The notes beneath the pieces were generated by a model. That model did no database searches. It saw nothing but the letters and a program-made list of their open reading frames with translations, and was not told the DNA's origin. Positions 21,311-27,923 of a stretch of 49,062 nucleotides of DNA are shown in pieces. Each line of letters opens with the position of its first letter. Within the stretch, counting starts at the first letter, position 1. The stretch is from Rhodococcus yananensis. GTDB lineage: Bacteria > Actinomycetota > Actinomycetes > Mycobacteriales > Mycobacteriaceae. A program made the position numbers and the translations under genes. Where the stretch lies: positions 1 to 49,062 of the forward strand of contig NZ_JAIYEP010000031.1 in the NCBI RefSeq assembly GCF_020515525.1, written 5' to 3'.

Positions 21311-21688
21311 ATGAGCGACAACCCGGACACCCCCGCGGTCGACCGCGACGGTATCGCCGACGGCGACGGCGTGCGCGAACTCGCCGAGATCCCCGCAATC
21401 GAGGTCATCAGCCGCGCCGCGGTGATGCTGATGAGTTCGGCCGCCGAGAAACTCGGACTCGCCGACGAGGATCCCGACGCCGGCACGCACCGCGACCTGG
21501 ACGAGGCTCGGCGGGTGATCACCGCGCTGGCGGGGCTGATCACCTCGTCCCTCGAGTATCTCGGGCCGCACGCCGGCCCACTCCGGGAGGGCCTGCAGGC
21601 CCTGCAACGCGCGTTCCGCGAGGCGTCGGTGGTCCCCGACGAGCCCGGCAAGGGCCCCGGCGAGAAGTACACCGGCCCGGTGTACTGA
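21311..21688 (+). CDS. DUF1844-type protein
   Basis: A 125-residue acidic soluble protein from ATG 21311. The core VISRAAVMLMSSAAEKLGL, LDEARRVITALAGLITSSLEYLG and the following PLREGLQALQRAFREAS helix match the small DUF1844 family found next to infC in many actinobacteria. The pattern is three amphipathic helices, without catalytic motifs or a signal peptide. The tail GKGPGEKYTGPVY is disordered. It is divergent from infC and followed after 47 bases by the Rrf2 regulator. Function is unknown. A purine-rich GGTGGTGGGA lies rather far upstream, so the start is moderately certain. Confidence 0.8.
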   Translation: MSDNPDTPAVDRDGIADGDGVRELAEIPAIEVISRAAVMLMSSAAEKLGLADEDPDAGTHRDLDEARRVITALAGLITSSLEYLGPHAGPLREGLQALQRAFREASVVPDEPGKGPGEKYTGPVY

Positions 21689-21735: not shown

Positions 21736-22227
21736 ATGCGCGTGCAACTCGGGAAGCGGGGCGACTACGCGGTCCGCGCCGTGGTCGCCCTCGCGCGCCC
21801 CACGACCGCAGCCGACACGGACGGCTCGTCGCGGCGCAAGACCCGCGAGATCGCCACGGAGATGTCGATTCCGCTCAACTACCTACCGCAGATCCTCGCG
21901 CGGCTGGTCGCCACCGGCGTGATCGACTCGATCGCAGGACCGAACGGCGGTTACCGCCTCGCCCGGCCCGCCGAGCGCATCACGCTGCTCGAGGTCGTCG
22001 ACGCGGTCGACTCCGATGACGAACCCCCACGCTGCATCCTCGAGGGCAGGCCCTGCGGGTGGGAGCAGGAATGCGCTCTCCACCGCTACTGGTCGAGTGC
22101 GCAGGGCGCCTTCCGCCGCAGCCTCGAATCGGTCACGTTCGCCGACATCGCGGCGGTCGATGCGATGCTGACCGGGCAGCCCCGCGGGTCCGGTCCCGAT
22201 CAGTCGCGCGTCGCCGACGGCTCGTAG
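21736..22227 (+). CDS. Rrf2-family transcriptional regulator with three clustered cysteines
   Basis: A 163-residue winged-helix regulator. The N-terminal MRVQLGKRGDYAVRAVVALA, then REIATEMSIPLNYLPQIL and ATGVIDSIAGPNGGYRLARP, is the standard Rrf2 DNA-binding domain. Cys100, Cys107 and Cys113 (C-x6-C-x5-C) sit where NsrR/IscR-type members hold an iron-sulfur cluster, so redox, NO or iron sensing is likely (inference). A short low-complexity insert (~22-34) precedes the recognition helix. Its 3' end overlaps the convergent radical SAM gene by 28 bases. The neighbouring porphyrin-type genes are plausible targets. Confidence 0.88.
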   Translation: MRVQLGKRGDYAVRAVVALARPTTAADTDGSSRRKTREIATEMSIPLNYLPQILARLVATGVIDSIAGPNGGYRLARPAERITLLEVVDAVDSDDEPPRCILEGRPCGWEQECALHRYWSSAQGAFRRSLESVTFADIAAVDAMLTGQPRGSGPDQSRVADGS

Positions 22228-23345
22228 ACGCACGCCGGGTCGGCCGCCAACAGGTCGCCGGTCACCGCGTACGCATGCGAACGGGACCCCCCGCACACCT
22301 GCCGGTACTCGCATAGGCCGCACTTCCCGCCGAAACCGTCCGGGTCGCGCAGTGCCCGCATCACCGGCGAGGTGCGGTAGATGTCGTCGAAGTGTTGTTC
22401 GCGGACCGATCCGGCCACGACCGGCAGAAATCCGCTGGGATACACGTCCCCCAGGTGGTCGATGAACGCGAAACCGCGACCGGCGTTGACGTCCATCGGT
22501 GGGCGGGCGGGACGGGTTCGCACCCCGCCGGACGCAGAGGTGGCGACGCGCAGCCGTTCCCCGAGTGGGCCCGGCCGGTGGACCGTGCCCGCCGCCCGCT
22601 GCAGCGCCACCCGCCGAAAGTGCGGTGCCTCGGTGGTCTTGATCGCCACCTGATCGCCGACGTCGTGCAGCCAGTGCAGCACGTCCTCCACACCGGCGGG
22701 ATCCAGCGGACCGAGCCGGGAGCCGCGCCCGGTCGGTACCAGGAAGAACACCGACCAGAGCGACGCACCGAGGTCCACCACGGTCGCGAGGATGTCCGGG
22801 AGTTCGTGCGCGTTGCCCGCGGTGACGGTGGTGTTGATCTGCAGCCGGTAGCCCACATCCTTCACGGTCCGCGCGGCCTGCAACGTGCGGTCGAAGACCC
22901 CGTCGATGCCCCGGAATCCGTCGTGACCGGCCGCGGTCGCCCCGTCGAGGGACAGCGAGACGGCGGTGGCTCCCGCGTCGTGTAGCTCCCGCAGCACCGG
23001 TTCGGTCAACCGCGGTGTCACCGACGGCGACAGGGCGACGTGCAGGCCGATCCCCGTCCCGTATCGCACGAGTTCGGGCAGGTCGGGGCGCTCGAAGGGG
23101 TCGCCGCCGGTGAGCACGACGATGGGCCGTGGTGTACCGAATGCCGCGATCCGATCGAGCAACCGGAAGCCTTCCACCGTCGTCAACTCGAGTGGGTTGC
23201 GCGCGCGGATGGCGTCGGCGCGGCAATGAGCGCATGCGAGGGCACACGCCCGGGTGACCTCCCAGATCACGATGAACGGCCGCTCGTTCGGATCGTGTCG
23301 CATGGTCCGTACGGTGCGCGCGGGACGTGTGGGGATCACGGACAT
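22200..23345 (-). CDS. Radical SAM/SPASM protein (TIGR04053-like)
   Basis: A 381-residue radical SAM enzyme from ATG 23345, with GGGAG seven bases upstream and a 10-base overlap with the preceding HemY-like gene. The 4Fe-4S motif CALACAHC (CxxxCxxC) follows FIVIWEVTRA near residues 25-40. VVLTGGDPFERPDL and SLSLDGATAAGHDGFRG are typical SAM-binding and barrel motifs. The C-terminus has SPASM-type cysteines: CGLCEYRQVCGG, then a later DPACVYEP. The set resembles the AhbD/NirJ/TIGR04053 branch rather than mycofactocin MftC. The substrate is unknown. Coupling to a porphyrinogen oxidase points to tetrapyrrole chemistry (inference). Confidence 0.85.
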   Translation of the reverse strand: MSVIPTRPARTVRTMRHDPNERPFIVIWEVTRACALACAHCRADAIRARNPLELTTVEGFRLLDRIAAFGTPRPIVVLTGGDPFERPDLPELVRYGTGIGLHVALSPSVTPRLTEPVLRELHDAGATAVSLSLDGATAAGHDGFRGIDGVFDRTLQAARTVKDVGYRLQINTTVTAGNAHELPDILATVVDLGASLWSVFFLVPTGRGSRLGPLDPAGVEDVLHWLHDVGDQVAIKTTEAPHFRRVALQRAAGTVHRPGPLGERLRVATSASGGVRTRPARPPMDVNAGRGFAFIDHLGDVYPSGFLPVVAGSVREQHFDDIYRTSPVMRALRDPDGFGGKCGLCEYRQVCGGSRSHAYAVTGDLLAADPACVYEPSATRD

Positions 23346-24787
23346 TCGGAAACTCCCGGTTCGTCGTCGAGGTACCGGTGCGCGGATGCTGCGCCGGAGT
23401 CGAGGTGGGCCGTGACGCGACCCGCCGCCGCCAGGCCCGAACGGATGCACGAGGTCAGGCCGATGCCGCGGTGGCCGGCGCCCGCGAGCACCAGTCCGGG
23501 GTGCTCGGACAGGTGCTGCTCGGCGAGGTCGATGCGGTCGCCGTGTCCGGATTCGAGCTGGGTCGAGGTGTGTGGCCACCGCTGCACGTGGACGGCGGTC
23601 GGTACGGCGTCGAATCCGGTGATGGCGGTGAGGTCCGCCAGCAACCGACCGGTCAGCTCCGTGTCGTCGAGGTCGCCGATCTGCGGTCCGGTGATGCGCC
23701 CGGCGGAGAGCCGGACGTACACGTCGGGTCCGTCGTCGAGGTGTGCCCATTTCGCGCTGAGGAAGGTTGCGGCCTTGAGCAGGTACGGTTCGCGGGAGGA
23801 GACGAGCAGACCGGTTCCCGGCAGGGCGGCGACGCCCGCGGTGCGGGGGAACGCGGCGATCACTGTGTTGACGGAGGCGGCGCGGACTCCGCCGAGTTCG
23901 GTGGCTGCTGCCGCGCTGGTCCGAGCGAGGATTCGGGCTGCGGCACGGGGTCCGACGGCCAGGACGACCGCATCGAAGTCCCGGTCGGCGAAGTCCCGGT
24001 CGTCCCCGCCTGTGTCGTCCCGGTCGATGTCGAGGCGATGGCGCGGACCCACAGGGTGCACCGAACGCACGGAGTGACCGGTGCGGATGTCGAGTCGGGA
24101 GTCTGCGGCGAGCCGGTCGACGAGTTCACCGAGCCCCTTCGGGAAACTCACCGACTCGGGCACCGGGCCACGGCTGCGGCGACCCGGTCGGCGCGCCAGC
24201 AGCAGGGAACGGTGTCGGGCCGCGGTCGCGGCCAGTTCCGGTAACGCCGCGCCGACGCTGATGCGGTGCACGTCACCGCCGTGCAGGCTGCCGAGCAGTG
24301 GGTCGACGAGACGTTCGACGACCTCGTGGCCGAATCGGTGGCCGATCAGGTCGCCGACCGAGACGTCGCCGTCCAGCGGCCCGCGACGAACGAGCGGTTC
24401 CATCGCGGCCCGCAGGACACCGCACGGAGACAGGGTTCGGGCGCCGAGCACCGGCAGCAGCTTCGTCGGCCCACCGGGTCCGACTCCGGCGGGAAGTCGG
24501 CGGAGCCGGCCCGCGGCGTACACCCAGGTGTGCGAGTCGCGGGCGGTGCACAGTCCGGCGGTGAGGTCGGGGTCGTCGTCGAGGCCCGGGATGGTCGCAC
24601 CCATCCGGTGCAATGATTCGGCGCCGACATCGATGGCGTGGCCACCCACCCGGACGGTGCGGACCTGCCCGCCGAGCCGCTCGGAGGATTCGAACACCAC
24701 CGGGTGCAGGCCCGAGCGCGCCAGGGCTCGACCCGCGATCAGTCCGGTGACGCCACCCCCGATCACGGCCACGGTCTGTTTCGGCAT
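23336..24787 (-). CDS. HemY/CgoX-type FAD-dependent porphyrinogen oxidase
   Basis: A 483-residue flavoprotein from ATG 24787, with GGGAG upstream. It has the N-terminal FAD-binding fingerprint VAVIGGGVTGLIAGRAL, VVFESSERLGGQVRT and DVGAESLHRMG, a middle FPKGLGELVDRLAADS block, and the C-terminal LLKAATFLSAKWAH and LAGAGHRGIGLTSCIRSGLAAAGRV. These are those of the protoporphyrinogen/coproporphyrinogen III oxidase family. Actinobacteria normally carry their housekeeping copy with hemE and chdC, so this one may be a second paralogue (to be checked in the genome). It overlaps the radical SAM gene, forming a two-gene operon behind the dyad at 24794-24838. Confidence 0.85.
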   Translation of the reverse strand: MPKQTVAVIGGGVTGLIAGRALARSGLHPVVFESSERLGGQVRTVRVGGHAIDVGAESLHRMGATIPGLDDDPDLTAGLCTARDSHTWVYAAGRLRRLPAGVGPGGPTKLLPVLGARTLSPCGVLRAAMEPLVRRGPLDGDVSVGDLIGHRFGHEVVERLVDPLLGSLHGGDVHRISVGAALPELAATAARHRSLLLARRPGRRSRGPVPESVSFPKGLGELVDRLAADSRLDIRTGHSVRSVHPVGPRHRLDIDRDDTGGDDRDFADRDFDAVVLAVGPRAAARILARTSAAAATELGGVRAASVNTVIAAFPRTAGVAALPGTGLLVSSREPYLLKAATFLSAKWAHLDDGPDVYVRLSAGRITGPQIGDLDDTELTGRLLADLTAITGFDAVPTAVHVQRWPHTSTQLESGHGDRIDLAEQHLSEHPGLVLAGAGHRGIGLTSCIRSGLAAAGRVTAHLDSGAASAHRYLDDEPGVSECP

Positions 24788-24793
24788 CGCTCA

Positions 24794-24838
24794 CTCCCGA
24801 TAGAACTATTAGTTCGATGCTAATAGTTCCGTCGGGAG
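24794..24838 (-). promoter_or_regulatory. Nested 45-bp dyad (operator and/or RBS hairpin) before the HemY-like gene
   Basis: Inner arms GAACTATTAG (24803-24812) and CTAATAGTTC (24820-24829) are a perfect 10-base inverted repeat with a 7-base spacer. Outer arms CTCCCGA (24794-24800) and TCGGGAG (24832-24838) are also perfect. Within the left half GAACTATTAGTTC is itself a 13-base palindrome. The AT-rich core is striking in this GC-rich DNA. The HemY-like ribosome-binding site lies in the outer arm. It is a likely regulator binding site, the Rrf2 protein being the nearest candidate. Confidence 0.65.

Positions 24839-24884: not shown

Positions 24885-27923
<3,039 letters not shown>

Follow-up and report, generated by a model that had tools for sequence, protein, structure and literature searches.

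A hemY–radical SAM gene pair with an adjacent Rrf2 regulator in Rhodococcus yananensis, a putative low-oxygen ending of the coproporphyrin-dependent heme pathway

Organization and distribution of the locus

The subject of this analysis is a compact three-gene locus on contig NZ_JAIYEP010000031.1 of Rhodococcus yananensis (assembly GCF_020515525.1), a stretch of 49,062 nucleotides referred to here as the window. Two of the genes are encoded on the minus strand: hemY2 (24787-23336; ATG at 24787, TGA 23338-23336), for a HemY/CgoX-type flavoprotein oxidase of 483 amino acids and, overlapping it by 10 bases, a gene for an AhbD-like radical SAM/SPASM enzyme of the TIGR04053 family (23345-22200; ATG at 23345, TGA 22202-22200; 381 amino acids). 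The third, on the plus strand, encodes an Rrf2-family regulator of 163 amino acids (21736-22227; ATG at 21736, TAG ending at 22227); it is convergent with the radical SAM gene, and the two overlap tail-to-tail by 28 bases. No other genes are found between uvrA, which ends at 24885 and is separated from hemY2 by a gap of 97 bases, and a gene whose product matches PF08899 (DUF1844). Within that gap, 15 bases upstream of the hemY2 start codon, is a perfect AT-rich inverted repeat with 10-bp arms and a 7-bp spacer (24803-24829, no strand). An initial annotation of the window had described the 10-base overlap and the convergent regulator, and the gene coordinates agree with it.

The initial annotation had also viewed these genes as inserted, and comparison with congeners at the DUF1844/uvrA site upholds this within the genus. 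In the genus, 1 of 18 genomes encodes a TIGR04053 protein scoring over the cut-off, and in the order 7 of 199 do. Beside the DUF1844 gene, in the approximately 1.5 kb fetched from each of the other 17 congeners, uvrA was present in 13 (about 1.1 kb away in one of these, L220) and not found in four, and the Rrf2 gene was found in none; HemY2 was not searched there. Matches to the Rrf2 protein in these 17 genomes were distant only, the best having 40% identity. The comparison of sequences thus points to hemY2, the radical SAM gene and the Rrf2 gene as an island gained within the genus. An alien base composition was considered and rejected, the GC content of the three genes being 0.70-0.72 compared to 0.66 for the flanking uvrA and 0.73 for the DUF1844 gene. 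A TIGR04053 gene is also situated directly downstream of uvrA, as is the pair in the window, on plasmid pDFI2 of Deinococcus ficus (L285, 5536-9161), where no HemY is annotated; this shared adjacency is probably a coincidence.

The regulator matches the Rrf2 superfamily (TIGR00738, 107.6 bits, cut-off 73.3; PF02082, 110.7 bits, cut-off 30) and misses the equivalog profiles of IscR (74.5 bits, cut-off 207.55), NsrR (38.3, cut-off 182) and RirA (51.2, cut-off 193). Its cysteines are arranged as C100-x6-C107-x5-C113, so that both the profiles and the cysteine positions accord with the annotated Rrf2-type regulator carrying C-x6-C-x5-C. Among 80 TIGR04053 loci from named genomes (the best 80 of 557), only two have an Rrf2 match. 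At L089, from Acidimicrobiia, the gene is convergent beside the pair and its product shares 55% identity with that of the window, while L095 has a more distant match upstream of the radical SAM gene; the C-x6-C-x5-C spacing is common to all three homologs. Strict conservation of the three-gene set, a check that had been suggested with the annotation, was consequently rejected.

The inverted repeat upstream of hemY2 is a candidate operator for this regulator. Its core, with 9-bp arms, occurs once in the genome when up to three mismatches are allowed (control, 0), and when the 97-base gap was shuffled 20,000 times, perfect 10-bp arms with a spacer of at most 10 arose in 21 cases. At 11 other loci where HemY is upstream, the repeat was not found (the best matches having 6-11 mismatches of 18), and hence an operator conserved across loci was rejected; the lowest value, 6/18 at L089, equals the minimum obtained from 200 shuffles (mean 9.0). 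A second perfect inverted repeat, GC-rich and with 10-bp arms and a 1-bp spacer, is located where the DUF1844 gene ends (21666-21686) and precedes the Rrf2 start by approximately 50 bases; it is a candidate terminator or operator.

HemY2 and the radical SAM enzyme

In NCBIfam profile searches, HemY2 matched protoporphyrinogen oxidase (TIGR00562) with 166 bits (cut-off 97.85), and it has the protoporphyrinogen oxidase fold. The genome encodes the coproporphyrin-dependent (CPD) heme pathway set of hemE, hemY/cgoX and chdC elsewhere: hemE (405 bits), hemY1 (629.7) and chdC (HemQ_actino, 357.9) adjoin one another on contig C13. HemY2 is therefore a second copy, as the initial annotation had supposed, and not the sole HemY-like gene product, a finding that would have spoken against it. 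It is also a divergent copy, since it scores only 219 bits against NF008841 (cut-off 517), the profile for which the 629.7 bits of HemY1 were recorded. A tree of 50 HemY rows (a short search with SH-aLRT support only and one long row, L134) places HemY2 in a clade of 12 with a support of 100, composed of 11 upstream neighbors of radical SAM genes, that of the window included, and an unlinked HemY from Propioniferax, itself a TIGR04053 carrier. This clade is apart from HemY1 and on the same side of a 99-supported branch as two Firmicute CgoX rows. The HemY partners encoded downstream of the radical SAM gene in Streptomyces make up a further clade within the canonical actinobacterial HemY side, and the Cryobacterium HemY and a group from L114, L125 and L134 are each separate again. 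Given that the supported branches force at least three changes for the downstream label and at least two for the upstream label, the tree indicates repeated origins of the HemY-TIGR04053 pairing, with three or more HemY lineages involved.

HemY2 thus resembles CgoX/HemY in its fold, its match to TIGR00562 and the links of its relatives to ferrochelatase and hemE, and it differs from the ordinary actinobacterial enzyme in having a clade of its own and in scoring below the NF008841 cut-off. From the pathway context, its substrate would be coproporphyrinogen rather than protoporphyrinogen. The same oxidation of coproporphyrinogen III without oxygen is carried out in Bacillaceae by CgoN (YtpQ) (PMC10965808), which by its description, as distinct from a comparison of sequences, is a different protein; in S. 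aureus, the DUF1444 protein NWMN_1636 is apparently the homolog of CgoN. CgoX of S. aureus was reported to be both necessary and sufficient under anaerobic conditions too, and an S. aureus cgoX mutant was complemented anaerobically by Firmicute cgoX and not by that of S. coelicolor (PMC6620371). Because the two cgoX genes differ anaerobically, a special, oxygen-independent HemY2 is plausible, if not proven. It may instead be that the pair does serve heme synthesis and that HemY2 is a dosage copy co-induced with the decarboxylase, having no special independence of oxygen. The Streptomyces partners, on the ordinary actinobacterial side of the tree, would fit such a role, as would the use of oxygen by HemY enzymes in vitro (PMC6620371), whereas the separate position of the HemY2 clade on the Firmicute CgoX side and the anaerobic complementation data speak against it, and a dosage copy is held to be possible without being favored.

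The radical SAM enzyme matched TIGR04053 with 507.6 bits (equivalog cut-off 395), followed by AhbD (TIGR04545) with 319.9 bits; its scores for NirJ (TIGR04051, 164.8 bits, cut-off 515.45) and NirJ2 (211.5 bits) were below the respective cut-offs. The resemblance to the AhbD branch noted in the initial annotation is thereby confirmed. The mean identity to 28 archaeal AhbD rows is 41%, and in a tree of 120 rows, the TIGR04053 rows and the AhbD rows are each on one side of a branch. Cysteines 34, 38 and 41 form the radical SAM motif CX3CX2C, and those of the AuxII motif CX2CX5CX20-38C are C342, C345, C351 and C372, all four of which are kept in 87 of 87 TIGR04053 rows. The AuxI columns, matched to the Methanosarcina barkeri numbering by a constant offset of our own, hold cysteine throughout the 28 archaeal AhbD rows and E239, V286, S304 and S354 in the enzyme from the window. 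Glu/Ser/Ser at the sites of the methanogen AuxI cysteines, the signature given for AuxI-less AhbDs (Fix et al., 2023; PMC10452713), was found in 78 of 87 TIGR04053 rows, including the window enzyme (E239/S304/S354). Fold matches ranked by Z placed SuiB first (26.2; root-mean-square deviation 3.2, 308 aligned), tied with SkfB (25.4), while Foldseek placed PqqE first; SuiB was also the top structural match of a published AhbD model (PMC10452713). Neither the listed sequence matches nor the listed fold matches include an AhbD structure, which excludes nothing.

The enzyme is accordingly comparable with the AhbD of M. barkeri and Desulfovibrio in its CX3CX2C motif, AuxII cysteines, mean identity and match to SuiB, and it is unlike AhbD (TIGR04545) in its score and in its want of AuxI cysteines. 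A further difference is that its host has no siroheme decarboxylase, so that coproheme would be supplied by the CPD route. On the basis of its sequence, the reaction proposed for it is that of AhbD, the conversion of coproheme to heme b.

Recurrence and genomic context of the pair

Neighboring HemY genes were sought with tblastn at the 80 loci using HemY1 and HemY2, and one adjoins the TIGR04053 gene at 24 of them (13 upstream, 10 downstream and 1 divergent), against a chance expectation of about 0.5 windows by a simple estimate that assumes two HemY genes per 5 Mb genome. The supposition that the two genes might not co-occur elsewhere, which would have told against the initial annotation, can thus be set aside. 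In 23 of the 24 cases, the two genes are on the same strand with matched stretches no more than 125 bases apart (577 bases at the divergent L125), and for 11 upstream cases the ends range from an overlap of about 19 bases to a gap of 10 bases, the start sites being approximate. Two of the 24 loci, L085 and L087, have incomplete or split reading frames, and at two further loci, from Cryobacterium, HemY is about 4.6 kb from the radical SAM gene. A genome of the same order as R. yananensis, G178, has a second HemY, the radical SAM gene and narG on one contig within approximately 32 kb. Other genes of late heme synthesis accompany some pairs. The order hemY-radical SAM gene-hemH is found at L077 (ferrochelatase, 442.6 bits, cut-off 408), and that of L114 is cytochrome c, a COX1-family (NorB-like) oxidase, hemE (404.3 bits), hemH (159.5 bits against TIGR00109, cut-off 124.6), the radical SAM gene and hemY; in the L114 genome, the HemY of the pair is the only one over the cut-off, and ChdC-family matches are also present. 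Eight Streptomyces loci have the order narGHJI-radical SAM gene-hemY.

At 11 of the 80 loci, and not in the window, a nitronate-monooxygenase-like protein of approximately 460-540 amino acids is encoded beside or near the TIGR04053 gene. Its gene is upstream of the radical SAM gene at L103 (6541-7926), L122 (6598-8007), L124 (4845-6254), L126 (6569-7963), L128 (1927-3327) and L139 (6622-7992), downstream at L138 (4908-6329) and L147 (2683-4068), and farther away at L077, L089 and L144. Eight of the 11 are directly adjacent to the radical SAM gene, and because none of these eight loci has an adjacent HemY, the protein may fill the HemY slot. In 3 of 3 of these proteins tested, PF03060 was over its cut-off and partial, and in 2 of 2 tested there was no NCBIfam match at 1e-10.

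Genes of nitrate and nitric oxide (NO) metabolism are neighbors at many of the loci. In the tblastn survey of neighbors, nar genes were found at 19 of the 80 loci, nar or nor at 29, and nar, nor, nirK-like or nnrS-like genes at 34. Across the order, narG over the cut-off was found in 64 of 199 genomes, comprising 7 of 7 TIGR04053 carriers (R. yananensis included) and 57 of the other 192 (Fisher p = 2.8e-4, the related genomes not being independent). An annotated Halobellus plasmid has nirK, for the copper enzyme, beside the TIGR04053 gene; a Haloferax larsenii plasmid has a halocyanin and a cbb3-type oxidase gene in this position.

A relative from Haloferax provides genetic evidence. Deletion of the ahbD gene HVO_2144 of Haloferax volcanii, which is near nirK and norB, was reported to strongly slow anaerobic growth only, and protoheme restored growth by respiration of dimethyl sulfoxide; conversely, deletion of the ChdC protein of this organism, PitA, harms aerobic growth (PMC5746218). 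Haloferax sulfurifontis has no AhbD over the cut-off, its best match (332.8 bits) coinciding in position with the TIGR04053 locus L152, and at L152 nirK and norB matches are beside the TIGR04053 gene, as reported for HVO_2144. Gene context and L152 together suggest that HVO_2144 is probably a member of the TIGR04053 family. It resembles the Haloferax TIGR04053 loci in its context of halocyanin, NorB-like oxidase and nirK, and it is the anaerobic partner of a ChdC, as proposed for the radical SAM enzyme of the window. The two differ in that coproheme in H. volcanii is thought to be derived from siroheme (PMC5746218), while that of R. yananensis would come from HemY and ferrochelatase.

The source of coproheme was examined further with PF17805, taken as the siroheme decarboxylase (AhbA/AhbB-type) domain and matched in controls from Methanosarcina, Haloferax, Sulfolobus and Deinobacterium; searches for this domain and for ChdC took in the genomes of 48 of the 80 loci. 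(G126 and G231, with identical radical SAM proteins at L045 and L105, are apparently one genome and are counted twice in the sets of 55, 37 and 87.) PF17805 is absent from R. yananensis and 48 others, or 49 of the 55 genomes searched, and present in six, namely five haloarchaea and Tepidibacillus, the latter accounting for the 1 of 37 genomes without a HemY match. The picture of two routes is incomplete, since the haloarchaeon G247 is also without a PF17805 match. Of 49 genomes, 47 encode ChdC, in keeping with an additional enzyme that serves under other conditions and does not replace ChdC in general.

Proposed role and its significance

These data lead us to propose that hemY2 and the radical SAM gene probably duplicate the closing steps of CPD heme b synthesis, as a conditional system for low oxygen. 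HemY2 would oxidize coproporphyrinogen III to coproporphyrin III, presumably without oxygen, and iron would be inserted by a housekeeping ferrochelatase. The TIGR04053 enzyme would then turn two coproheme propionates into vinyls, yielding heme b with no requirement for the H2O2 that ChdC needs (PMC10965808); this decarboxylation would begin with abstraction of hydrogen at the β-position of the propionate, as inferred for AhbD (PMC11306076). The Rrf2 protein, whose three cysteines probably bind an Fe-S cluster, may sense oxygen, NO or iron and control the pair from the inverted repeat. Of the initial interpretation, the assignment to a tetrapyrrole module holds. An alternative porphyrin- or heme-modifying branch with no described counterpart is not supported, given the Haloferax deletion, the late-heme operons and the absence of siroheme decarboxylase; the pair fits the last CPD steps, with an AhbD-type enzyme replacing ChdC.

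A number of observations weigh against this proposal. The enzyme misses the AhbD cut-off of 500 bits. Fix et al. describe AuxII-only AhbDs as untested (PMC10452713), and no assay of any TIGR04053 member was found in the open-licence literature. Moreover, the C324A variant of M. barkeri AhbD, in which AuxI is perturbed, gave hardly any heme and was arrested at the monovinyl intermediate, while the loss of AuxII was tolerated (PMC10452713); TIGR04053 proteins are without AuxI cysteines. The use of oxygen by HemY in vitro and the absence of the repeat from 11 other loci with HemY upstream are of the same tendency. No adjacent HemY is found at 56 of the 80 loci or at any of the six from the window's own order, 32 of the 80 lack a nitrate/NO gene in the stretch as well (10 of the 32 being shorter than 12 kb), and no nitrate-respiration cluster was noted beside the pair in the window, narG being on contig C3. 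ChdC, missing from the metagenome bins G244 and G262, is not always a partner. At L043 (1028-8283), of the same order, the TIGR04053 gene follows cydA, cydB and cydC, a link to cytochrome bd; in D. ficus it is near genes for siroheme and sulfite assimilation. Finally, the denitrifying growth of the HVO_2144 mutant was rescued only in part, and only with added dimethyl sulfoxide (PMC5746218).

The cyd genes just upstream at L043 would suit a radical SAM enzyme that makes a modified heme, such as heme d1 in the manner of NirJ or heme d, as a cofactor for denitrification or a bd-oxidase. So would plasmid pTF24b of Thermus thermophilus TF24, where nirS and a cytochrome c gene flank the TIGR04053 gene (L186, 6303-9562), and the spacing C-x2-C-x5-C-x20-C of this enzyme, which also fits the motif of NirJ (PMC10548856). 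We nevertheless regard this as improbable: the NirJ and NirJ2 scores are far below that for AhbD, the siroheme decarboxylase domain expected for heme d1 is absent from R. yananensis and most of the genomes searched, and the copper NirK of the Halobellus carrier needs no d1. The Thermus protein itself may serve either heme b supply or heme d1.

With HemY1 and ChdC already in the genome, and the island so patchy in the genus and order, the pair might alternatively make or degrade a specialized tetrapyrrole (a porphyrin metabolite, monovinyl heme or salvaged heme) instead of cellular heme b, and the monovinyl stall of the AuxI-perturbed AhbD could be read in this sense. There seems little chance of this, as the informative neighbors are respiratory nitrate/NO and late heme genes, plain protoheme eases the defect of the Haloferax relative, and no further gene is present between uvrA and the DUF1844 gene. 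A low-oxygen ending of heme b synthesis therefore remains our preferred reading. More speculatively, Actinobacteria could form coproporphyrin and heme in the absence of oxygen by combining a dedicated, electron-acceptor-coupled CgoX (the HemY2 clade) with an AuxII-only radical SAM decarboxylase under a new Rrf2 sensor, and elsewhere the nitronate-monooxygenase-like protein, a flavoprotein unrelated to HemY, could take the place of HemY as a second, new kind of oxygen-independent coproporphyrinogen oxidase.

That either AhbD or ChdC is able to end the CPD pathway is already known from reviews (PMC7242693, PMC12670364), as is the occurrence of ahbD beside hemY and hemH, ahbD having been reported to colocalize with hemY/hemH/hemQ sets (PMC10548856, citing Dailey et al., 2015). 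The open-licence literature yielded no match to TIGR04053 by name, and neither a separate actinobacterial HemY clade tied to this enzyme nor the local Rrf2 was found there. As far as that literature goes, then, the HemY clade, its repeated pairing in Actinobacteria with an AuxII-only relative of AhbD, the operons of nar, radical SAM and hemY genes, and the local Rrf2 are new. They bear on three gaps: the anaerobic formation of coproporphyrin in Actinobacteria and its electron acceptor (PMC6620371), an oxygen-independent enzyme for the ChdC step in Gram-positive bacteria (PMC10965808), and the heme synthase activity of AuxII-only AhbDs with their substitute for AuxI (PMC10452713). With just two genes and a regulator alongside, the operon makes an easy test case for all three.

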